DNA of 45,160 bases, taken from the IMG/VR virus record IMGVR_UViG_3300018476_000017, positions 1 to 45,160 of that record. One strand, given 5' to 3'. A program made the position numbers and the translations under genes. The notes beneath the pieces were generated by a model. That model did no database searches and was not told where the DNA came from. It saw nothing but the letters and a program-made list of their open reading frames with translations. Positions 969-30,704 of this stretch are shown here, one piece after another. Within the stretch, counting starts at the first letter, position 1, and each line of letters begins with the position of its first letter. Origin of the DNA: a virus.

Positions 969-1106
969 TCAACTCTTGACGATGACGTAGTGCCCACCCT
1001 GCGAACGCACGATGGCCATTGCTGCCGACAGCGAGTCGACCGTTTGCTGGCTGCCCTCACGGGTGGTCACCAGGTACTTGCGGGTCTTGCCGCAGCCACA
1101 GGCCAT
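969..1106 (-). CDS. Small Cys-motif protein in the late operon
   Basis: A 45-residue protein, MACGCGKTRKYLVTTREG at the N-terminus and ending HYVIVKS. It has a CxC pair (C3, C5) followed by a short alpha/beta-like segment. Short CGCGK-type proteins occur between head and tail genes in actinophages, without a known function. The start ATG 1106 overlaps the stop of the MuF gene as ATGA, and the next gene starts 3 bases after its stop. The coupling on both sides is the main evidence that it is real. Confidence 0.7.
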   Translation of the reverse strand: MACGCGKTRKYLVTTREGSQQTVDSLSAAMAIVRSQGGHYVIVKS

Positions 1107-3520
1107 CAGACACCGACCTTCTCACGCAGGCGGGCAACGCGCTGCTCACGGATCGAAGCGGTGAGCGCTGCGGCACGTTCCGCCCGTTGGCGGGCCGCCA
1201 CTCGGCGCTCTTGCTCGTCCACCACACTGACGGCGATCACGCCGTAGTCGATGGCGTTGGGGTCGGCGGTGACGATGGCCGCCGCGGTCAGAGCCAGCAA
1301 CATCTCCGGGTCGGCGGCAGACGCTGCCAACTCCAGCCGCGGGATCGGGAACCCGGGAACATTGACGATCAGCGCGCCGACCAGTTCAAGCGTGCCGCCA
1401 ATGCGACGCCAGTCGCCAGAGGGGGCTCCGGCGCGTAGTGCATGGGCTTGCTCTTGGCTGATGCCGGGACGCTCGATGCCGTGGACCCAGATGCCGAACT
1501 CGTCCTCACCGGCGGCAACGTCGGCAACCACGGTGCCGGTGTCGTCGTAGTGGCGCACGGTCTCGGTGGGGCTGGCGTCGGCGGTGGCGTGGCCGGTGCC
1601 CGCAGTGATGTGACCCACCGGCACCGGGCCACCGGCGGTCATCACTTCGCCGGTGCGGAAGTACGCATAGTCATGCGCTGACTTGGGAGCGGTGACGCAG
1701 TTCTTCTCACCGAAGCCGACGTGGCAGGTGTCCCAGGTGGCCAGGTGGCCGCTGACTTCGTTGAAGTCGCCAGCGGCGCGCACCATCAGTGGTGTCGGCC
1801 CCTGCAACTGCGGGTCAAGGAACAGTTCGATCGGTGGCTCCATGTCATCCTCCATACAATCACATTGAGCGAAGGCCGCAGCGACCTCACGCAGTTGTTC
1901 GGTGTCGATGTCCAACGGCAAGCCGTCGAAGTAACCGGGGTCCGCCGCGGCGGCAACTCCCCCACGCCGACCGCGGCGGCCACCTTCTTGGCCAGGCCAC
2001 AGGTTGATGGCCACCTTGTGCAAGTTGGCGCACGTGCCGTCGAGGTACGCCGGATTCTTGATGTACTTGCGAAGTTGCTTGCGGCAGCGGTCGAAGTCGC
2101 CGGGCACGCCCCAGCGAATCTTGGCTGCGCCCTTGCCGCGCGTCCAGTAGGTGCGCAGCCGTTGGGTGTCACGGGGATGGGTCACCCAGCCGGGACCGTC
2201 GTGGGTGCCGGGTGCGGCGACCAAGTCGTCGGCGTCGGCCTTCAAGCTGTCGGGCACCTCGTCACCGAGCTTGGCGTACAGGCCGCGCAGCCGACTGCGA
2301 GCCTTGGCTTTCTGTTCGGCGGGGGCATTCACGCCGCCACGCGCTCCGGCCAGGGCAGCCGCAGCGGCGTGAACCCCTGCCCTGCTCACTGCTCCCGAGG
2401 GGGTGAGCACGGGGACCTTGTAGGTGCTCTTGGATTGCGGGTCGCCACCGGGCATGGTGATCAGGCAGGCCCGCCGCCACTGCTCGATGGTGTAGTCGCT
2501 CGATGAGAAATTGCTCCACGGTTCTTCGCTGACGGCCAGCAGGGTGTCGTCTTCCAGGGCGGCGGCCATCTCGGTGGGCGGCGGCGGGTCGCCGCTGCGG
2601 TCGATCTTCTCGCCTGCCCACCACAGCTGCACGCCGTCGACGCTGACCGAGTCGGGGGTCACGTCGGGGTGGGGCACGCCGTAGCCGAGCGTGACATGCG
2701 GGGTGAAGTGCGGATGGTCGCCCGCCGGGCGGGCCACTTCGGAGAGGCTGTCGTGCAGGGTGGCGAAGTTGGGATGCTCCAACAGGTAGGTCGTGGCTTG
2801 CGGGTCGTCGTCGCCCATGAACGCCTTGCCGGTGATCTTGGCGTCGAACGGCTCGACGGCGGTGTTGTTCAGCCAGGCGACCAGTGCCTCGCGCAGCTGC
2901 GGCGGCGCTTCGTCGGCGTGGCCGTAGTAGCCCAAGGTGACATGCAGTTGGTCCGGCGGGTCACCACCGGGCACAGCAACGCTGGCAGGGTCTGCCAGTG
3001 TCGCCACCGCTACGGCTCCCCGAGGCGGATCGGAGGCGGCAGTGACGACACCGGCCCCCACAGTCAATCCACAGCGGCAGTTGATCCACACCGCAGGCGG
3101 GCCGACCGGCTGCCCCGGATATTGCAGGGCAACGCCCCCGACCATGAAGGGCTTTCCGGCGGCGACCGTGACGCCCTCCATTGGCTCGTGTGTGTCTCGC
3201 ACACGATCATCGAGGCGGGTGTTCCAGGTGAACGTCGACCCCGGCGGGGCAGCGGCGATCACCGCGGCATTGGCGGCGGCGGTCTCCAGCCAGCCGACCA
3301 CCAAGTCGATGTCGCTGTTGGCGCGGGTTGCTTCGATGGCCGCGCTGAGCATCATCGTGTAGTCGCGCACGTCGTCCACGGTCAGTGTGTCGGCGCTGTC
3401 GTCGTCCACAATGCGGTCGTATTCGGCGGCGAACAGTTCTTCGGCAATGCGTTCCAACTCGGCGCTGCGTTCACTGGGCAGCAGGGCAAGGGCGGCTTCG
3501 ACGTCGGAGCGGGTGCTCAT
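1106..3520 (-). CDS. MuF-like minor head protein fused to a 2H phosphoesterase and a protease-like C-terminal region
   Basis: 804 residues from ATG 3520, which overlaps the portal stop as ATGA. Residues 1-155 match the phage Mu F family: RLDDRVRDTHEPMEG, a YPG turn and the terminal NCRC (147-150). Residues about 185-305 hold two HxT motifs, HVTLGYYG (H193) and HVTLGY (H275), the signature of 2H phosphoesterases (LigT / 2'-5' RNA ligase superfamily). About 340-500 contains a Ser/Lys-rich region and the actinophage block KGAAKIRWGVPGDFDRC. About 540-800 includes HLATWDTCHVGFGEK and GHITAGTGHATAD, found in actinophage capsid maturation protease-like proteins. Expected to sit in the head near the portal. 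The enzymatic domain in a virion protein is unusual. Confidence 0.85.
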   Translation of the reverse strand: MSTRSDVEAALALLPSERSAELERIAEELFAAEYDRIVDDDSADTLTVDDVRDYTMMLSAAIEATRANSDIDLVVGWLETAAANAAVIAAAPPGSTFTWNTRLDDRVRDTHEPMEGVTVAAGKPFMVGGVALQYPGQPVGPPAVWINCRCGLTVGAGVVTAASDPPRGAVAVATLADPASVAVPGGDPPDQLHVTLGYYGHADEAPPQLREALVAWLNNTAVEPFDAKITGKAFMGDDDPQATTYLLEHPNFATLHDSLSEVARPAGDHPHFTPHVTLGYGVPHPDVTPDSVSVDGVQLWWAGEKIDRSGDPPPPTEMAAALEDDTLLAVSEEPWSNFSSSDYTIEQWRRACLITMPGGDPQSKSTYKVPVLTPSGAVSRAGVHAAAAALAGARGGVNAPAEQKAKARSRLRGLYAKLGDEVPDSLKADADDLVAAPGTHDGPGWVTHPRDTQRLRTYWTRGKGAAKIRWGVPGDFDRCRKQLRKYIKNPAYLDGTCANLHKVAINLWPGQEGGRRGRRGGVAAAADPGYFDGLPLDIDTEQLREVAAAFAQCDCMEDDMEPPIELFLDPQLQGPTPLMVRAAGDFNEVSGHLATWDTCHVGFGEKNCVTAPKSAHDYAYFRTGEVMTAGGPVPVGHITAGTGHATADASPTETVRHYDDTGTVVADVAAGEDEFGIWVHGIERPGISQEQAHALRAGAPSGDWRRIGGTLELVGALIVNVPGFPIPRLELAASAADPEMLLALTAAAIVTADPNAIDYGVIAVSVVDEQERRVAARQRAERAAALTASIREQRVARLREKVGV

Positions 3521-5307
3521 GGGACAGCCTCCAGGGCGCGCGGCATGGTTGCTGCCAGCAATGCAGAAAGCACCGTTGCCGAATGCGGGCGTTGCGATTC
3601 CAACAGGCCACGGACGTAGAAGTCGAGTGTCTCGATCACCGACTCGACACTGCCGGTGTAGCTGGCCAGCACCGCAGGCGCGCAGGCCCAGGCTCCCGCC
3701 AACAGGCTGGACGTGTCGCCGTTGAGGGTGCGATACACGTCGACGGTGGCCATCGACTTGGCGTCGTACTTGGGGTGGGCGTTCATCAGCTTGTTGCCTG
3801 CACGCTCCAGCGCCCGGTACACCAGCACGTCGCACGCTGCGGCCAAGCCGACCTGTTCGGACTTGGCGTGGTGGCTCGGCTCGTTCTGGTCGGGCGGGTT
3901 GCGCCGCTCCAGCGCCGGGGTCACGTCGGTGCGTAGGTGGTCGGGCGGCAGCTGCGCAGGCTGGACGCTGATCGTGCCCAGGTCGGTGCCCAGCAACTTC
4001 AGCGCCGCTTCGGTCATCTCCGGTGTGGTCGAGCCGACAGCGATCTTGCGCAGCAGCCACATCTTCTGTTCGGCGGTGAGCGGTGCGTCTTCCGGTTGGA
4101 AGCCGGTCTCGCGGCGCAGGGCCACGCCGCTGAGCTCGTTGCGGTCGTACAACTCGATGGCCTCTTGGCTGCGGTTGGGGCGCAGGCGGATGCCGCTGGT
4201 GTCAGCGATCACGAAGTAGTCGCCCACTTCGTCGTCGGGCACCAAGCCCTTCAGCGACGGTTGCAGGTATTGCTCGGTCAGGGCGTAGGCCAGGGTTGCC
4301 AGCTTCGGTTCCAGATGGGCCTTGACTGCCGACTCCTCAGAGAGCCATGCGTTCCAGTGGTTGGCGTCGGCCACGCCCAGCAGCACTTCCGGGGGGACGT
4401 CCATGCCCAGGGCAAGCCGCTTGATGGCGGCATCGCGCATGACGACGACCTTGTCGTCCAACTCGCTCCAGAACTTGAGATGCTCTTGCTTGCCCAGCGC
4501 TTCGGTGGGGACCATCGCCACAATCGGGACCAGCGCGCTGGGGTCGGCACGGTCGCCAATCGGGGTCATCATCGACTCACCGAGAATGGCCATGAACCTG
4601 CTGGCCGGGCTGGCGTTGGGGTCCATGCCTTCGGGCACGGGGAAGTCGATGTCGCTGGACATGAACAAGATGCCAGCACCCGCCAAGCGGCTGGCGATCT
4701 GCGCCGACACGTGCATGTCGTAGCCGGTGATCTGCGCCAGCGTCGACAGGTTGGGGCGCACCGGGCTGTCGGGGCGGGTCGGGTCTTGCGGGTTGGGCAT
4801 CCACACCCTGATCACCAGGTCTTGCGGGGTCAGCGTGATCGGCCCGGCCTCGGTGCCGAAGTCGGCCTGCAACACCCCGCCGGGCAGCTGGGTGACCTTG
4901 TTGTAGGCCAGCGTTTCCCAGGCGTCACCCTTGGCCCGGTTGACGATGTATTCGTCACCGGCGATGGTGGTGTGCACGCCGAACAGTTGCAGCATCTGGC
5001 TCTGCCCTTGCGGCCCGCCGTACAGGGCGTCCATGGCTTCGGTGGCGGGGCTGTCGCCACCACTGATCGGCACCAGCAGTCGCCCTTCACGCTTGGCGGC
5101 AACCAGCGTGGCGCGGCTCAACACGTTGCCGATCCACGTTGCTACATAGCGAAGCTCACCAACGTTCTCCCAGAATCGCCACGCTTCGCCTTGCCAGTTC
5201 TCCGGTCGTCCCGCCATGTTGCGGCTGCTGTTCGGCAGCCTGACGGCGGAGGCCACGAAGCCCGCCGGAGCGACGGGCGCGGGCTGCGGTTGACGTACCT
5301 TGGCCAT
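3517..5307 (-). CDS. Portal protein
   Basis: 596 residues, a normal length for an actinophage portal, placed between the terminase and the MuF gene as usual. It has the family's alpha/beta core: WQGEAWRFWENVGELRYVATWIGN near the N-terminus (read here in parts), a central SSDIDFPVPEG segment, and the conserved LGMDVPPEVLLGVADANHWNAW stretch around the stem and wing. The dodecameric portal ring is the DNA entry and exit channel and binds the terminase. It begins 15 bases after the DUF1360-like gene and is ATGA-coupled to the MuF gene. Confidence 0.9.
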   Translation of the reverse strand: MAKVRQPQPAPVAPAGFVASAVRLPNSSRNMAGRPENWQGEAWRFWENVGELRYVATWIGNVLSRATLVAAKREGRLLVPISGGDSPATEAMDALYGGPQGQSQMLQLFGVHTTIAGDEYIVNRAKGDAWETLAYNKVTQLPGGVLQADFGTEAGPITLTPQDLVIRVWMPNPQDPTRPDSPVRPNLSTLAQITGYDMHVSAQIASRLAGAGILFMSSDIDFPVPEGMDPNASPASRFMAILGESMMTPIGDRADPSALVPIVAMVPTEALGKQEHLKFWSELDDKVVVMRDAAIKRLALGMDVPPEVLLGVADANHWNAWLSEESAVKAHLEPKLATLAYALTEQYLQPSLKGLVPDDEVGDYFVIADTSGIRLRPNRSQEAIELYDRNELSGVALRRETGFQPEDAPLTAEQKMWLLRKIAVGSTTPEMTEAALKLLGTDLGTISVQPAQLPPDHLRTDVTPALERRNPPDQNEPSHHAKSEQVGLAAACDVLVYRALERAGNKLMNAHPKYDAKSMATVDVYRTLNGDTSSLLAGAWACAPAVLASYTGSVESVIETLDFYVRGLLESQRPHSATVLSALLAATMPRALEAVP

Positions 5308-5934: not shown

Positions 5935-5947
5935 GGTTCCTTTCGTT
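5935..5947 (-). promoter_or_regulatory. AACGAAAGGAACC ribosome binding element on the minus strand
   Basis: The 13-base motif that precedes most plus-strand early genes occurs here on the minus strand, 4 bases before ATG 5930. GAAAGGA is complementary to the UCCUUUC 3' end of actinobacterial 16S rRNA. It is the only clear copy in the late operon and has no hairpins beside it. Confidence 0.75.
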
Positions 5948-7340
5948 ACGGCGTGTAGCCCCTGATGGTTGGATGGAGATGGCGCTGCGGGCGGTCGTGC
6001 CGCCGCAAGGCGGATGGTGATGCAATGTCGGTGGTGCGGGCGCGACCGGCCAACTCGGTCATGCCGTGCACCAAGGCGTCGACACGGTCCGGACTGTCGC
6101 GGTCTTCATACGGCTGCCATGTGGTCATCTGTTCTTCCAGTGTTTCCAAGATGCCGACATGCGACACCAAGCCCTGTTCGTACAGGCCGACGATCGGCTC
6201 GGCGCGCAGTGCCTTGCCGCGACGACTGTTGACCCGGATGATCCGCTTGTTGATGCCGCTGCTGCGCAGGTTCTGTTCGACAAGGTCGCCACCGTAGTTG
6301 TCCTCGCAGACCACAGCGTCGGCTTCGTATTCGTCCCAGGCGGCGTCGACAGCGCGCGCCCAGCCCTGCGGCGAGTGCCTGCCGCTGCGGTCGGCCAACG
6401 GGTAGTAGCGCCCGTCGTGGCCGCGGGCGACGACGATGATGCCGGTCTCGTCTGAGTGCTTGTTGGCCGTGCCTGCCGGGTCGACGCTGACCACCACGCG
6501 CTTGAGTTCCGGGGCGATCTGCACACGGTGCGGCTCGATCATGTCGAAGGTCCACAGTGCGCCTTCGACGTCGGCCAGCAACTCGCCGTAGACCTCTTGG
6601 CGTCCTTGTCTCGTGCCTTCGTACTTCTTGATGATCACCTCGGCAAAGCTCGGTGCGAGGTTGTCGATGTTGTCGTAGGTGCTGGCCGTACTGATGCGTG
6701 TCCGCGGGTCAGCGATGAGCTCTTTCATCCACAGCCGCGGCTTGGGCGTGGTGGTAACAACGATGCGCGGCTTGCGGCCGATGCGCAGCCCGAACATCAT
6801 GTTGTCCCAGGCTTCTTGGACGAGCGGCCAGTGGGCGGGTTCGTCGCACCAGGCAAAGCCATGCTCGGGGCCACGCAGGCGGTCCGGCTCCTCCGCACTG
6901 AACGTCGTCCCGATGCACCCGTTGGGCCACGTCAACCGGCGCTTGGACGGCTCAAACGTGGGACGCCAACCGGGGCGGGCGATGGTCAGCAGGCCGCTCT
7001 CACCTTCCAGCAACGTGTCGCGCACGTCGGCCCCTGTTGCCGCGATCAGGGCGATGCGGCTGACGTGTTCGGCCATGCGGTGGGTGTATTCGGATCCGGC
7101 GCGGGTCTTGCCTGCGCCACGGCCCGACTTCATCAGCCACACCAGCCAGTCGTCGTCGGTCGGCGGGCGCTGACTGCCGCGGGCGTGGTTCCATTCCCAT
7201 ACGTCGTGGGGCTTGCCGTCGCACGCCGGGCGCGGGCAGTAGAACGGTCGCCAGTCGTCGTTGCGCGACTTCTGCAGGCGCTCCAGTGCGGCTTGCTGGG
7301 CGGCGGGTGTCCACTCTTTGTAGATGTCGAGCTCGCTCAT
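5946..7340 (-). CDS. Terminase large subunit
   Basis: 464 residues from ATG 7340 (MSELDIYKEW), which overlaps the preceding stop as ATGA. The frame stays open upstream, but that part overlaps the DpdA-like gene and looks non-coding. The ATPase domain has Walker A SGRGAGKT (72-79), Walker B WCDEP (D166/E167) and the coupling motif TTTPKP. The C-terminal RNase H-like nuclease shows VVVSVDPAG, VVCEDNYGGD and SPDRVDALVHGM, supplying the acidic metal ligands. It packages DNA into proheads through the portal two genes downstream. Confidence 0.95.
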   Translation of the reverse strand: MSELDIYKEWTPAAQQAALERLQKSRNDDWRPFYCPRPACDGKPHDVWEWNHARGSQRPPTDDDWLVWLMKSGRGAGKTRAGSEYTHRMAEHVSRIALIAATGADVRDTLLEGESGLLTIARPGWRPTFEPSKRRLTWPNGCIGTTFSAEEPDRLRGPEHGFAWCDEPAHWPLVQEAWDNMMFGLRIGRKPRIVVTTTPKPRLWMKELIADPRTRISTASTYDNIDNLAPSFAEVIIKKYEGTRQGRQEVYGELLADVEGALWTFDMIEPHRVQIAPELKRVVVSVDPAGTANKHSDETGIIVVARGHDGRYYPLADRSGRHSPQGWARAVDAAWDEYEADAVVCEDNYGGDLVEQNLRSSGINKRIIRVNSRRGKALRAEPIVGLYEQGLVSHVGILETLEEQMTTWQPYEDRDSPDRVDALVHGMTELAGRARTTDIASPSALRRHDRPQRHLHPTIRGYTP

Positions 7341-8116
7341 CACCACAGTCCCATCTGCACGGCACGGTCGGGCGTGCTGGCGACCACCTTGGCACGCCAG
7401 TCGAGGGCGAAGTGCAAGCACGACGTGCAACTCTTGGAGTTGCTGACCGGGCACGGCACGGTGCGCCGTCCCCATGTCGACCAGGCCATTGAGTCGGCAC
7501 TGGTCAGGCACCAGCCATAGCGGCGCAAGCCCAACAGCTTGACCCCGAACCCGTGCAGGCGCAACCCGTCGCCGTGCAGGGCGGCGATCAGTTCGGCTAT
7601 CGGGCGGGTCGCCTGGCGGCGGCACACGCTGCCCAAGCCGACCACCGGCTCGGCAAACAGGTCGACACCGGCGCGGCTGTAGGCGTCGATGTGACTGCGG
7701 TAGTCGGCAAGGGTTTGGCCTTGCAGCACGGGGATCACCGCGGCGTCGAGGGCGCGCAGCGTCAGATAGTTGTCGACCGTGTACGCCTGCGCCTGGCCGA
7801 CCGTCGAGGCAACCTCGCTGCGGGCCAGCACCCACGGCTCGCACATATGGTCTTGCGGGGCGCACCACCCCAACATGCCGACCTCGTCGCGGTAGCGGCG
7901 GATGGCCGCCGCGTATTCGACGGGCGTGGTGAGGAAGCGCCCGAAGTTGGCGACCTCGGTGAACGCCCCGGAGTCGAGGCACCACCGCGCCGTGGCCCGC
8001 GGCAAGTGATACGGATGCTCGCGGGCCAACCGCCGATGGCTGACGAACAGCGGCACGGCGACCTTTCCCAGCCAACGGGTCATGTTGGTGCCCAGGTAGA
8101 ACTCATCGGCCAGCAT
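7340..8116 (-). CDS. DpdA-like (TGT-fold) 7-deazaguanine DNA base-exchange enzyme
   Basis: 258 residues from ATG 8116 (MLADEFYLGTN); a longer start at 8182 is possible but would overlap the upstream gene by 80 bases. Features of the tRNA-guanine transglycosylase fold: CLDSGAFTE (like the DSGGFQ motif), VIPVLQGQTLADY, GVDLFAEPVVGLGSVCRR, LHGFGVKLLGL, TSADSMAWS with the candidate nucleophile Asp, and a C-terminal CPVSNSKSCTSC with a following His as a zinc site. Phage DpdA proteins replace guanine in DNA with preQ0 derivatives, which protects against restriction. It sits directly before the terminase, as in some mycobacteriophages. No preQ0 synthesis genes are in this window, so host preQ0 may be used. 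Confidence 0.8.
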   Translation of the reverse strand: MLADEFYLGTNMTRWLGKVAVPLFVSHRRLAREHPYHLPRATARWCLDSGAFTEVANFGRFLTTPVEYAAAIRRYRDEVGMLGWCAPQDHMCEPWVLARSEVASTVGQAQAYTVDNYLTLRALDAAVIPVLQGQTLADYRSHIDAYSRAGVDLFAEPVVGLGSVCRRQATRPIAELIAALHGDGLRLHGFGVKLLGLRRYGWCLTSADSMAWSTWGRRTVPCPVSNSKSCTSCLHFALDWRAKVVASTPDRAVQMGLW

Positions 8117-8874: not shown

Positions 8875-9106
8875 GGCTGGCCTTGATCCCGTCCACGAGG
8901 GCATGGATCGAGTCGGGCTTGCGCGCCGGGCCGAGCGGCGGCACCTGACGGCGCGCTTCGGGCCTGACGGTCTGCTCGACACACCAGGCGATGTAGTCGC
9001 TCATGTTCCACCGTCTGGCGCGGGCACGCTCGGCGGCGGCGGCGTGCAGGTCAATCGGTAGGCGCACGGTCGCTCTCACCCGGCGTCCCTTGTACGGCTG
9101 CGGCAT
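8867..9106 (-). CDS. Ribbon-helix-helix-like small DNA-binding protein
   Basis: 79 residues, MPQPYKGRRVRATVRLPIDL then HAAAAERARARRWNMSDYIA and WCVEQTV: a basic N-terminal arm, a beta strand and two helices as in CopG/Arc repressors. A strong GGAGGTG lies 4 bases before ATG 9106. It overlaps the genes on both sides (56 bases upstream, 8 bases downstream). DNA-binding is inferred from the fold pattern. Confidence 0.7.
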   Translation of the reverse strand: MPQPYKGRRVRATVRLPIDLHAAAAERARARRWNMSDYIAWCVEQTVRPEARRQVPPLGPARKPDSIHALVDGIKASHE

Positions 9107-9242
9107 GGAACACCTCCCTGGTGCAGACGGCTTCGGCCCATTGGCCGATGCTCATGTGGTGGCGGTTGGCTTCGGCTTCCATCGCGGCGCGCAGGCTGAT
9201 CTGCGGGCGGAAGGCGACCGGGGTGTCTTTGCTGCGCTCCAC
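9051..9242 (-). CDS. Small RHH-like protein
   Basis: 63 residues from GTG 9242, directly after the stop of the PGDYG-like gene. AFRPQISLRAAMEAEANRHH and MSIGQWAEAVCTREV resemble a weak ribbon-helix-helix pattern. Its last 18 codons overlap the start of the next gene in another frame. It is the weakest member of the RHH cluster. Confidence 0.5.
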   Translation of the reverse strand: MERSKDTPVAFRPQISLRAAMEAEANRHHMSIGQWAEAVCTREVFHAAAVQGTPGESDRAPTD

Positions 9243-9509
9243 CTACGTGCCGACCTCGACGGTGCCGACCTCCAAGATGGCGTCGTAGGTGGCATAGAAG
9301 ATGTCCGGCTTGCACGGGTAGAACTCGCCAGCGACCCCGCAGATCACGTAGTCGCCCCACCCGGCGAGCATGTCGCCTTCGGTGGTCGGGATGATGATGC
9401 CGTCGATGTCGATGGCCGACCCCCCGCACCACTGGGCGATGTCTTCGGCGTTGTCGCCGGTCAACTGGCGGGCTTCGATGGCGACCGGGCGCTTGCGATA
9501 CATCGGCAT
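9243..9509 (-). CDS. PGDYG-domain-like phage protein
   Basis: 88 residues. MYRKRPVAIEARQLTGDN, EGDMLAGWGDYVICGVAGEF and YPCKPDIFYATYD follow the common phage family in which a PGDY/W turn precedes a GEFYPCKPDIF motif. The protein is widespread in phages and prophages with no proven role. Start may be ATG 9509 or the second Met at 9503; neither has a clear SD. Confidence 0.7.
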   Translation of the reverse strand: MPMYRKRPVAIEARQLTGDNAEDIAQWCGGSAIDIDGIIIPTTEGDMLAGWGDYVICGVAGEFYPCKPDIFYATYDAILEVGTVEVGT

Positions 9510-9542
9510 GACGCGGACGTTAACACGAACCTGCCGCAGATA

Positions 9543-9833
9543 CTAGGTAGGTCGCTTGGCTCGTTCGGCCTCGATCAGCAGCTGGTCTTTGCGGGCGCGC
9601 GCGACGGCCATCGCGAACGCCTGCTCATGGGTGACCTCAACCCCACCGACCGTGGTGAAGCCCTCCCAATGACGCCGCGGACGCCACATGCCGTGGAGGT
9701 TGCGGATGCTGTCGCAGCTGGCGCAGTAGTCGATGCCAAAGTCGAGCGGCACCAAGTCTTGGTTGTCGCAGCACTGCATGGCGCGGCGAGCGGCGAGCAC
9801 TTCGGGTTGTTCCGGCGGGTCGATGGCGGTCAC
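9543..9833 (-). CDS. Hypothetical Cys-rich protein
   Basis: 96 residues from GTG 9833, overlapping the upstream stop as GTGA; the open frame further upstream overlaps that gene and is not coding. CC (about 21-22) and CASC suggest a zinc-binding knuckle, followed by HGMWRPRRHWEGFTTVGGVE and a charged helix (AVARARKDQLLIEAERAKR). No family is recognised. Confidence 0.6.
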   Translation of the reverse strand: MTAIDPPEQPEVLAARRAMQCCDNQDLVPLDFGIDYCASCDSIRNLHGMWRPRRHWEGFTTVGGVEVTHEQAFAMAVARARKDQLLIEAERAKRPT

Positions 9834-10144
9834 TTGGTCACCGTCCTGTTGCAGTCGAGGCACCGGGCGACGCCGGACAGCTTGGGGTCGGCCTTGGTGC
9901 GCTTGTGGAGACAGTCTGCCACGGGGGGTTGCGGCGATGTCACTGGTGGCGTTGTGACCCCGAGTAGCGACTGCTGGGCTGGTTCGTCGGGAAGCTGGAG
10001 CCGGTCGATCAGCTTGCTGAGCACGTCGGCGCGGGACTTGCCGGTGGCTGCGCACACCGCGTCGAGGTGAGCCAGCCGAGCCGGACTGACCCGCGCGTTG
10101 AGCGGCTGTGCCCGGCCGGAAGGGTCTGCAGGAGGACGTGCCAT
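9830..10144 (-). CDS. RHH-like DNA-binding protein with a C-terminal zinc knuckle
   Basis: 104 residues from ATG 10144 (MARPPADPSG); an alternative start lies at 10162. PLNARVSPARLAHLDAVCAA followed by GKSRADVLSKLIDRL fits an RHH domain. A Pro/Thr-rich linker leads to DCLHKR and RCLDCNRTVTK, which resembles a small zinc ribbon. It is GTGA-coupled to the next gene. Likely a DNA-binding regulator; target unknown. Confidence 0.65.
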   Translation of the reverse strand: MARPPADPSGRAQPLNARVSPARLAHLDAVCAATGKSRADVLSKLIDRLQLPDEPAQQSLLGVTTPPVTSPQPPVADCLHKRTKADPKLSGVARCLDCNRTVTK

Positions 10145-10189
10145 TAGCGATGACACTATCACGAGATGTTGCGGTTGTGTATGACAGAA

Positions 10190-10453
10190 TCAGGGGGTAG
10201 GGATGCTTTCTGAGGAGCCGTCGCCGTAGCGAAGCTCGATGCTGTCGGTGCTCGGGCGACCCAGCAACCTGCCCGACCCATCCCGGTTGACCACGCCGAC
10301 TTCCCTTTCGACCCGCAGCGCCGCATTGAGGCGTTTGGTGATCCACAGACCGGGGCTCATACCCGCCTGAGCAGCCCGTTCGCGCACGTGAGCGTCGAGG
10401 TCGAGGGGTAATTGCAGCCCGATGGTCCTGCCTTTGGTGAGTCCCTTGGCCAT
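10190..10453 (-). CDS. Ribbon-helix-helix repressor-like protein, first gene of the late operon
   Basis: 87 residues, MAKGLTKGRTIGLQLPLDLD then AHVRERAAQAGMSPGLWITK and RLNAALR: a basic arm, beta strand and two helices of the CopG/Arc type. The C-terminus (RLLGRPSTDSIELRYGDGSS) is of unknown function. A palindrome with GTTTAC/GTAAAC arms lies 18 bases upstream of ATG 10453, a fitting site for autoregulation. Its position at the divergent control region suggests that it controls the late operon, the early region or both. Confidence 0.7.
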   Translation of the reverse strand: MAKGLTKGRTIGLQLPLDLDAHVRERAAQAGMSPGLWITKRLNAALRVEREVGVVNRDGSGRLLGRPSTDSIELRYGDGSSESIPTP

Positions 10454-10470
10454 GAGCCGATGGTAGTCCT

Positions 10471-10497
10471 GTTTACCCCTAGCGTCTAGCCGTAAAC
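10471..10497. promoter_or_regulatory. 27-bp palindromic operator candidate
   Basis: Outer arms GTTTAC and GTAAAC and inner CTAG/CTAG half-sites are arranged symmetrically around a 3-base centre. The site lies 18 bases before the start of the RHH gene at 10453. Symmetric short half-sites are typical for dimeric RHH repressors. Binding is inferred. Confidence 0.55.
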
Positions 10498-10618
10498 GGG
10501 AGACTCGGTGGTCGGTAGGTGGTGGCTATCTGCGGCCGGTTGGAGGTGGATGTTCAGGTATAGCACCAGCTAGATAAGCATGCTCCACCGAGTAGGCGCT
10601 GACCAGGGGGGATGACCC

Positions 10619-28932: not shown

Positions 28933-29068
28933 CCAGGGCGAGTTCGATGCGCTGCTTGCCGCACACCGAGCGACAGCCGCTGAAGTGGAGGCGCTGAAGC
29001 TGCGTCTGGCCTACGTCGAGGGCTGGGTGCGCGGCGTACAGGAGGCGCTGCGCAAGGATGAGACATGA
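28916..29068 (+). CDS. Very small coiled-coil protein
   Basis: 50 residues from GTG 28916, helical throughout (GEFDALLAAHRATAAEVEAL, KLRLAYVEGWVRGVQEALRK). It overlaps the genes on both sides (17 and 4 bases). A small oligomerisation or adaptor protein; it immediately precedes the radical SAM gene. Confidence 0.6.
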   Translation: MAEGVSQGEFDALLAAHRATAAEVEALKLRLAYVEGWVRGVQEALRKDET

Positions 29069-30033
29069 CCTACGTCCAGTCGGCACCGTTCAGCATCCAG
29101 GTCGAACCCACCGAGGGTTGCAACCTGCGCTGCGGGTTCTGTGGTATACGCGGCATCCGCGAGAAGGGCACCAGCGGCGCGCTGAGCGGACCGTACAGCT
29201 ACATGGCGGTTGACACGGCGCACGCGCTGGCACGCCAGGTGGCCGCCGCCGGGTGGAGCAGCCGCATTGAGTTCGCCATGCACGGCGAGCCAACGATGAA
29301 CCCCGACCTGCCAGCAATCATCTCGGCGTTCAGGTCGCGGTTGCCCAAGCAGTCGATCATGGTGACCACCAACGGCATCCCGTTGCTCGACCGTGGGCTG
29401 CGCGCCTCGATCCTTGCGCTCATCAACGCCGGGGCCAACACCATCGCCATTGACGACTACGCCCCGCACCGTGTGGCTCCCACGGTGCGGGGCGAGCGAT
29501 GGCCGTTTCCGGTGATGGAATACCCAGCCGACAAGCACGGCAATCCACACGTGCGCTTCTCAGGGCAGCGCATCGTGATCGTGGAGGACATCGCCCAGGC
29601 GGAAACCGGCACTCACTCGACGCTGAACAACCACGCCGGGAGCGCCGCCCCGCCGAACACCAAGCGTCAGGCGCAGGTGTGCACGCTCCCGTTCCGTGAG
29701 ATGAGCGTGCGCTACAACGGGCAGGTGGCTCTGTGCTGCAACGACTGGCGCGGCCAGTACCCCATCGGTGACGCCGCTGCCGACCTGCTGGCGGTGTGGA
29801 ACAGTCCACAGTTCATGGCGGCGCGGCGCATCTTGCTTGCGGAGGGGCGCAAGGACATCACGCCGTGCGCCGGGTGTGACTATCGCGGCACGCGCGTCGG
29901 CTTGCTGCCCCTGCAAGACGGAAGTGGTCGCGCCGAGTTGGGCGAGCCCACCGAAGCTGACCGCAAGATGGTTGCCGACCAAGCAGGCACCACGACCCTG
30001 GCACCAGTGGTGCTGCGAAGGTGGGAGAAGTGA
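29065..30033 (+). CDS. Radical SAM enzyme with SPASM-like C-terminus
   Basis: 322 residues from ATG 29065. CNLRCGFC (C19, C23, C26) is the CX3CX2C motif for the SAM-binding 4Fe-4S cluster. HGEPTMNPDL and MVTTNGIPLLD are the barrel motifs. The C-terminus (VCTLPFREMSVRYNGQVALC and CNDW, later CAGCDYRG) holds extra Cys residues as in SPASM auxiliary clusters. Such enzymes do radical chemistry on peptides, sugars or bases. It overlaps the glycosyltransferase gene by 4 bases, and phage radical SAM genes are known near TET/JBP genes, so action on a modified base or its sugar is the best inference. Confidence 0.8.
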   Translation: MTYVQSAPFSIQVEPTEGCNLRCGFCGIRGIREKGTSGALSGPYSYMAVDTAHALARQVAAAGWSSRIEFAMHGEPTMNPDLPAIISAFRSRLPKQSIMVTTNGIPLLDRGLRASILALINAGANTIAIDDYAPHRVAPTVRGERWPFPVMEYPADKHGNPHVRFSGQRIVIVEDIAQAETGTHSTLNNHAGSAAPPNTKRQAQVCTLPFREMSVRYNGQVALCCNDWRGQYPIGDAAADLLAVWNSPQFMAARRILLAEGRKDITPCAGCDYRGTRVGLLPLQDGSGRAELGEPTEADRKMVADQAGTTTLAPVVLRRWEK

Positions 30034-30704
30034 TCGCCATCATCAGTGCTGGGCGGCCAGCAAACGTCAAGGCAATGAGCGACGTGGGATGGCAGGGCAC
30101 ATGGTTCGTGCCGTATGGCGAAGGGGACGCCTACCTTGACGCTGGTGCCAGCGACGTGATCGAGAGCGGCAACCTGATCGACTCGCGCAACGTGGCGCTC
30201 GACATGGCGTTTGACCAAGGTGACGTGTGCGTGCAGGTCAGCGACGACTGCACCAAGATGCGCCGCCTGCACCAAGGCGAAGCACCAGCCGCGCTGCCGG
30301 GTGAGTTCGTAGCCGAAGCACTCGACCACATCACGGCCAACTGTCGGCTGGTGGGCATCGCCCCGACCGACAATGCGTTCTACGGCGGCGAGAAGGTGAA
30401 GCGCCAGCACTTCTGCGTGGGCGACCTGTTCGTGGCGGCACCCAGTCCGATCCGCTTCGACCGGCGGCTGCGCTTGAAGGAGGACTACGACTACACGGCG
30501 CAGCACATCTACCGCTACGGCGAAGTGGCTCGCCTCGACTGGTGGCTGGTCAGCTTCACGCATCGCACCAACGCGGGCGGCGTGGTGCAGTACCGCACGG
30601 CCGAGGTTGAGCAGGAGTCAATCGCGGTGCTGCGCGAGAAGTGGGGCAACTGGATACAGCCCAACAGCCGACGCGACAACGAAGTGCTACTGCGCGTCCG
30701 CTGA
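30030..30704 (+). CDS. TET-associated-type glycosyltransferase (TAGT-like)
   Basis: 224 residues from GTG 30030 (GTGA overlap, GGGAG upstream). IAIISAGRPANVKAM begins a GT-A fold; SRNVALDMAF and VCVQVSDDC (D72/D73, a DxD-like metal motif) follow, then LKEDYDYTAQHIYRYGEVAR, reminiscent of the EDxD region of this family. TAGT enzymes are encoded next to TET/JBP dioxygenases in phages and transfer sugar to the hydroxylated base in DNA. Its 3' end overlaps the convergent TET-like gene by 18 bases. The family is judged from pattern and neighbourhood. Confidence 0.65.
   Translation: MIAIISAGRPANVKAMSDVGWQGTWFVPYGEGDAYLDAGASDVIESGNLIDSRNVALDMAFDQGDVCVQVSDDCTKMRRLHQGEAPAALPGEFVAEALDHITANCRLVGIAPTDNAFYGGEKVKRQHFCVGDLFVAAPSPIRFDRRLRLKEDYDYTAQHIYRYGEVARLDWWLVSFTHRTNAGGVVQYRTAEVEQESIAVLREKWGNWIQPNSRRDNEVLLRVR

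Follow-up and report, generated by a model that had tools for sequence, protein, structure and literature searches.

The gene at positions 1106-3520 (minus strand) of an IMG/VR virus contig, IMGVR_UViG_3300018476_000017, raises the question of what a phosphoesterase would be doing inside a protein of the phage head. The whole stretch of 45,160 bases is called the window here. From sequence and model, the product of this gene carries a full 2H phosphoesterase domain between a MuF domain and a capsid protease. An earlier note, made from the letters of the window, had proposed such a domain and suggested that a copy in the virion could be delivered with the DNA. The reading we favor, with a probability of roughly 0.45 for the whole account, is that an intact accessory 2H enzyme would travel as cargo of a head polyprotein, be cut free, be injected and act against a defense nucleotide.

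Virion delivery of a MuF-fused 2H domain has already been published as a prediction and is not new. Iyer et al. 2017 (PMC5512222) describe 2H domains fused to MuF or portal proteins among polyvalent proteins and propose RNase activity or the degradation of defense nucleotides. A 2022 survey (PMC9503650) takes such fusions to suggest head packaging and injection against SMODS, cyclic-nucleotide and clustered regularly interspaced short palindromic repeats (CRISPR) signaling. No test of the proposal since 2017 was found in the literature. The chain studied here shares the fusion logic and the proposed delivery and counter-signaling role with those examples, but it also holds the capsid protease, has 2H between MuF and protease, and bears a shared junction motif. 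Within the portions of the two papers used, we found no protease in the same chain, no repeated gain and loss of 2H, and no motif shared by junctions and capsid protein. The new elements are therefore the gain and loss of 2H, its place as the fastest-evolving part, and the motif common to the junctions and the capsid border.

The 2H domain and its place in the chain

The two HVT motifs that the earlier note had read at residues 193-195 and 275-277, about 80 apart, lie exactly there in the translation of 1106-3520 (minus strand), 82 residues apart and so within the spacing of about 70-85 residues expected of the 2H superfamily. Residues 185-287 matched Pfam PF13563 (2_5_RNA_ligase2) with an E value of 6.9e-10 (39.6 bits, cut-off 27), and the PHROG model "RNA ligase" (phrog_2659) matched the 2H part with an E value of 1.7e-12. 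An AlphaFold2 model of the domain, built on an alignment of ten sequences, had a mean predicted local distance difference test score (pLDDT) of 81.6, with most core blocks above 90. Foldseek returned 28 chains with E values of 0.001 or below, headed by Thermus LigT (1iuh), Acb1 (7t26), E. coli LigT and the Burkholderia phage BCSR5 phosphodiesterase, the last of which appears as Acb1 in the profile-search listing of the PDB. In VIA-align, the Z scores were 13.4 for 1iuh (140 residues), 12.8 for the Deinococcus CPDase, 12.6 for E. coli LigT and 12.0 for Acb1, followed by the rotavirus VP3 domain (11.4), Usb1 (about 11) and the penguinpox phosphodiesterase (9.7); all rows above Z 10 were 2H proteins. 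The structure comparison suggested beforehand, with LigT, CPDases and Acb1, thus gave a predicted 2H fold that matches all three (Z 12-13). The family profile and the predicted fold rule out a chance pair of HxT motifs. The limits first given for the domain, 2600-2970, do cover its core, but the fold extends over about 2594-3022. On the opposite strand of this region, a 316-residue open frame (plus strand, 2669-3619) shows no coding sign and was judged artefactual, a result of GC-rich codon use.

The placement of the domain inside a MuF head protein also held, through PF13563 above its cut-off, the predicted fold and PHROG matches to the MuF part. Pfam MuF (PF04233) gave 19.8 bits on the window protein (E = 1.4e-3, below the cut-off of 29.6), and the PHROG head-morphogenesis models gave E values of 1e-12 to 1e-14; all 23 proteins of alignment A1 matched Pfam MuF at E values up to 0.1 (best 3e-15). 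Read along the chain, the PHROG labels are head morphogenesis (MuF), "RNA ligase" (2H) and head maturation protease (C-terminal domain). A phmmer search of PDB sequences with the whole fusion protein found no match; profiles were needed.

Ten sequences, nine of them 19-72% identical to the window, all keep both HxT motifs unchanged; neither the loss of these residues in close relatives nor a non-2H fold, the two observations named in advance as speaking against the domain, was seen. A wider alignment of 45 domains takes in 2H domains down to about 20% identity, and one relative (L047) has Cys in place of the Thr of the second motif. The domain is very probably an active enzyme. A relic 2H fold serving as a structural spacer without catalysis would fit its location inside a structural polyprotein, but the HxT residues are kept at about 20% identity while the remainder drifts, and otherwise intact relatives have no 2H domain. 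We regard the spacer as extremely improbable, and a relic domain was rejected on HxT conservation. The ratio of nonsynonymous to synonymous substitution rates (dN/dS) of the 2H part was 0.41, 0.40 and 0.62 between the window and three relatives, the highest of five protein parts in all three comparisons (other parts, 0.07-0.40). By this measure, 2H is the fastest-evolving part of the chain, with a constrained active site and fast overall change.

Among the viral contigs found through 2H, the common architecture is MuF-2H-S78-CH440-protease; other relatives have no 2H at the same place. One of these, L004, is 58% identical to the window protein over the shared C-terminal part and consists of MuF, CH440 and protease. 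On a tree of the MuF and protease parts, 28 of 46 rows carry 2H, with at least six label changes, five of them forced by supported branches. As judged from this tree, 2H is an accessory module whose presence changed, by gain or loss, at least five or six times. The common architecture is also found in two isolated Arthrobacter phages, BruhMoment (gp19) and MellowYellow (gp21), and the BruhMoment fusion gene sits between the portal and major capsid genes. Elsewhere the arrangement differs: 2H follows the protease in Gordonia phage Rofo, where MuF is a separate gene, comes first in the chain in Curtobacterium phage Kithara, and is a free-standing gene near the portal in mycobacteriophage Wally. 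In INPHARED, 269 phage records match the 2H domain, many of them annotated as "RNA ligase" or "capsid maturation protease". A single-sequence search of viral contigs with 2H alone found the two closest relatives only.

In Microbacterium phage ValentiniPuff, gp7 (L128, 3788-4960) is a "capsid maturation protease" of another kind whose N-terminal half holds a 2H domain; it lacks the junction motif and may represent a fusion of 2H with a head protein that arose independently.

A motif shared by domain junctions and capsid proteins

The part described earlier as protease-like spans about residues 576-722, and its best alignment is with the T4 capsid protease gp21. The C-terminal model (29 sequences) aligned in VIA-align with gp21 at Z 7.5 over 125 residues, then with herpesvirus proteases at Z about 4. 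Because Foldseek with this model gave no significant match, the evidence for a gp21 fold is moderate. The domain is assigned with moderate confidence to the gp21/assemblin-type prohead proteases, and the PHROG names and the invariant His657 and Ser701 strengthen the assignment. In most relatives a further domain, S78-like, follows 2H (or MuF) and precedes the remaining chain, so that each chain has two protease-fold domains, both with conserved His and Ser. The S78-like domain is missing in the clade of the window, L002, L004, L005, L086, L088 and L090, which corresponds to one change on the tree (a loss); neither the remainder of the window nor related contigs yielded a copy of it.

A short motif, S-L-(T/V)-A-(A/S)-(G/A), recurs in the fusion proteins where domains join, the 2H border included, and again at the predicted processing border of major capsid proteins. 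In 34 divergent fusion proteins, the pattern [LVI][TV]A[AS] occurred at junctions 102 times, whereas shuffled sequences gave 8.3 ± 2.9; this comparison rejects plain Ala-rich linkers as its cause. Its frequency per 1000 residues was 9.6 in linkers and 1.4 both in domain cores and in other long open reading frames (ORFs) of the same loci. Agreement extends beyond the positions of the pattern, with Ser before and Ala or Gly after it. The motif was present at 15 of 21 MuF-2H junctions, 23 of 31 CH440-protease junctions and 27 of 34 post-protease junctions.

In 47 major-capsid candidates the motif, mostly GSL(V/T)AAG, stands ahead of GW.APSE at residues 220-340, with a variable N-terminal region upstream. 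The search pattern itself demands A(A/S) before GW, and the informative part is therefore the recurring S-L-(V/T) and A-G. This position is the one expected for the border of a delta domain, as we infer from the capsid sequences. The conserved stretch GSL(V/T)AAGGWCAPSE was observed in actinophage major capsid proteins of L012 (about 8925-10613), L126 (7229-9133) and 45 other loci.

Since a test with the regular expression would be circular, a matrix drawn from nothing but 45 capsid border sites was run over the fusion proteins, which makes for a cleaner test. The top windows fell in linkers in 90 of 102 cases (40% expected; 36 of 102 in the reversed control), and the mean best score, given beside this control, was 16.0 versus 6.1. 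The junction motif resembles the (V/L/I)-x-A/S sites at which herpesvirus assemblins cut. On these sequence statistics, it is reasonably likely that the capsid protease cuts 2H out of the chain inside the head. The predicted cut sites also predict the mature N-terminus for a large family of actinophage capsid proteins.

Several points weigh against release of 2H by this route. Of 17 linkers between 2H and S78, only 3 contain the motif, and full two-sided release is thus not general. In the window itself, the borders of 2H read VVTAAS (N-terminal) and MAAA (C-terminal), weaker than the consensus. The motif was first spotted by eye, which makes the regular-expression test post hoc, and the binomial p-value of the matrix test (8e-24) ignores relatedness and is inflated by related sequences. 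The capsid processing border is predicted only indirectly, because single-sequence and profile comparisons of the major capsid proteins with PDB sequences found no related solved structure. Neither N-terminal sequencing nor virion proteomics was found.

Delivery and substrate

In the account we favor, the MuF part would take the polyprotein into the procapsid, and the C-terminal protease would cut S-L-(T/V)-A-(A/S) sites at domain borders while it matures the capsid. The 2H domain would be left in the head as a free or MuF-linked enzyme, would enter the next host along with the DNA, and would there most likely remove a nucleotide messenger of host defense, of the cyclic oligonucleotide-based antiphage signaling system (CBASS) or type III CRISPR type, ahead of any phage gene expression. 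Carriage in the virion and delivery together with the DNA are consistent with the architecture, the pattern of gain and loss and the protease-site-like motifs. Packaging of 2H in the head is likely, its entry into the cell is somewhat favored, and a defense nucleotide rather than RNA as substrate is an even call. The most specific form of the account is doubtful: an actinophage protease in a self-processing head polyprotein would free an optional defense-nucleotide phosphodiesterase through the sites also used in shell maturation, and the virion would inject it, destroying CBASS- or CRISPR-type signals before the first transcription.

Precedents exist for parts of this route. For phage P1, processing of DarA and entry of DarB into the cell are both believed to occur (PMC9024508), and in SPN3US head proteins are cut by the prohead protease and many packaged proteins are ejected (PMC10052503). 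These are likewise phage-encoded head proteins tied to maturation proteolysis, but they are separate genes, comprise other enzymes and are not fused to the protease. The 2H domain might instead work in the producing cell during assembly, or be lost with scaffold debris, and never be ejected. Ejection is a deduction here, which leaves room for this alternative, but MuF proteins are described as head components (PMC5512222), the protease stays in the virions of some phages (ArV2, Marvin and P2; PMC4205034), and a free early gene would presumably serve the producing cell better. We consider it rather unlikely.

MuF polymorphic toxins (PMC5576092) also combine MuF with a swappable enzyme domain. 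Their effector is C-terminal and toxic, whereas here the enzyme is internal, ahead of the protease, and the C-terminus is the protease, which departs from the toxin layout (an adjacent immunity gene was not searched for). An injected 2H that damages the host, for example as an RNase, like other MuF-linked effectors and not as counter-defense, would agree with the fusion of MuF to many effector domains (PMC5512222) and with VIP2-MuF fusions in Microbacterium phages (PMC7302621). Such a host-damaging role is very unlikely in our view. One consideration is that 2H enzymes are seldom toxic.

If 2H is injected, its substrate has to be sought among those of known 2H enzymes. Sequence and model place the window domain clearly in the 2H fold family, and its substrate could be a defense nucleotide or an RNA end. 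The earlier note had pointed to Acb1, which destroys CBASS nucleotides, and this link stands at the level of fold only. Acb1 (T4 gp57B, PMC9117128) shares the fold, the HxT/HxT tetrad and a similar second motif (TPHITLSY, here FTPHVTLGY). It differs in being a separate gene, as opposed to part of a head polyprotein, and in a motif spacing of 69 residues versus 82. Membership in Acb1 was set aside as not supported, as the 2H domain alone scored 18.7 bits with Pfam Acb1, below the cut-off of 27; on the whole protein this model likewise matched weakly. In the alignment with T4 gp57B, two of the five published base-contact residues of Acb1, Y12 and W147 (lid), have no counterpart in the window domain, and the others are doubtful: the position of F107 is His in the window and often Phe in relatives, and those of W74 and E141 are ambiguous at such divergence. 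The penguinpox cyclic GMP-AMP (cGAMP) phosphodiesterase and the rotavirus VP3 2',5'-phosphodiesterase are likewise viral 2H enzymes, with roles in immune evasion, but belong to eukaryotic viruses and have other architectures. The second motif of the window, PHVTLGY, is near both PHITLSY of Acb1 and PHVTIGY of the penguinpox enzyme.

The main competitor for the substrate is RNA. Acting like LigT/ThpR or Usb1, the enzyme would open RNA ends that carry a 2',3'-cyclic phosphate, or trim RNA, and so aid the repair of host or phage RNAs that defense RNases have damaged. The LigT/ThpR RNA 2',3'-cyclic phosphodiesterases include the best fold match (1iuh), and the nearest PDB sequences by profile are archaeal and Thermus LigT-like proteins (E values of 1e-9 to 5e-8), ahead of the penguinpox enzyme (2.5e-6) and, lower down, Acb1 (0.0017). 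The motif spacing of E. coli LigT is similar to that of the window domain. Usb1 also matches the fold, the public annotation reads "RNA ligase", and an RNase role is one option in PMC5512222. Pfam LigT_PEase gave 23.4 bits on the domain alone (cut-off 23.3) with no single stretch passing, and 18.2 bits on the whole protein. Against RNA end processing speaks the residue after the second HxT, which is Arg in the aligned LigT sequences and Tyr here: PH0099/P. furiosus and Thermus LigT read HITLGR and HITLAR, the window reads HVTLGY and most relatives HxTLxY, with Tyr in at least 90% of the 45 domains. The window domain thus lacks the LigT-type HxTLxR motif, with Arg as a criterion taken from the aligned LigT sequences and general knowledge, and it further differs from LigT/ThpR in lying within a phage head polyprotein. 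According to PMC5512222, these 2H versions are never seen with RNA ligases. No RtcB or Rnl2-type RNA ligase was found in the window or three related contigs, although these contigs are perhaps incomplete and the search for RNA_lig_T4_1 lacked a functioning control; because of this negative, a defense nucleotide is weakly favored as substrate. On balance we judge RNA end processing to be unlikely.

Anti-CBASS enzymes known so far, Acb1 among them, have been described as products of ordinary phage genes; a version delivered by the virion would be at work as soon as infection begins. The isolated phages BruhMoment and MellowYellow, which have the same kind of fusion, and a natural relative without 2H offer material for testing this.

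Genomic setting

The genes in the window are transcribed in the order terminase, portal, fusion gene (Table 1). The fusion gene lies between portal and major capsid: the portal is upstream in the window, and a major capsid ORF is downstream in relative L005. No major capsid gene was recognized in the 45,160 bases; it probably lies beyond the contig end, since the L005 capsid ORF comes after the fusion gene. A profile scan of bacterial genomes returned two distant loci, which give no host for the contig.

Table 1 Features of the head polyprotein gene and its upstream neighbors in the window
Feature	Position	Strand	Basis or remark
Whole fusion gene	1106..3520	minus	804 residues, ATG start; MuF - 2H - linker - small CH440 domain - capsid protease - C-terminal helices
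MuF domain, residues 81-152	3065..3280	minus	Pfam PF04233 and PHROG 2662/3517/2468
Candidate protease site VTAA, residues 159-162, N-border of 2H	3035..3046	minus	Predicted; weaker than consensus
2H phosphoesterase fold, about residues 167-309	2594..3022	minus	AlphaFold model and PDB fold matches
First HxT motif, HVT, residues 193-195	2936..2944	minus	H and T invariant in 45 aligned domains
Second HxT motif, HVT, residues 275-277, context FTPHVTLGY	2690..2698	minus	P and H in all 45 aligned domains, T in at least 90% of them
Candidate degenerate site MAAA, residues 318-321, C-border of 2H	2558..2569	minus	Predicted, weak; LTAA in L005, MTAA in L002
Candidate protease site LVAA, residues 433-436, before CH440	2213..2224	minus	Predicted
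CH440 domain, residues 440-512	1985..2203	minus	phrog_6439, E 3.3e-24
Candidate degenerate site VAAA, residues 522-525, before protease domain	1946..1957	minus	Predicted, weak
Capsid-protease (assemblin-like) fold, about residues 576-722	1355..1795	minus	T4 gp21 5jbl, Z 7.5; PHROG head maturation protease, E 6e-62
Invariant His657, candidate catalytic	1550..1552	minus	Same residue in all 23 fusion proteins and in at least 90% of the wider set of 29
Invariant Ser701 (SGDWR), candidate catalytic	1418..1420	minus	Invariant in 23 fusion proteins and in wider set of 29
Candidate protease site LTAA, residues 744-747, after protease domain	1280..1291	minus	Predicted
Portal protein gene	3517..5307	minus	phrog_776, E 3.9e-131
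Terminase large subunit gene	5946..7346	minus	phrog_979, E 3.5e-43

Shortly past the head polyprotein gene, the minus strand of 1-609 encodes a protein with collagen-like Gly-X-Y repeats, cut by the contig end. Adjoining the terminase gene is a queuine tRNA-ribosyltransferase-like gene (minus strand, 7340-8116; phrog_1279, E = 2.3e-77), which probably encodes a DpdA-type enzyme for 7-deazaguanine DNA modification, that is, a further anti-defense trait. Farther along, the plus strand of 29065-30704 carries a radical S-adenosylmethionine (SAM)-like gene and then a glucosyltransferase-like gene, both by weak PHROG matches (E = 3e-6).
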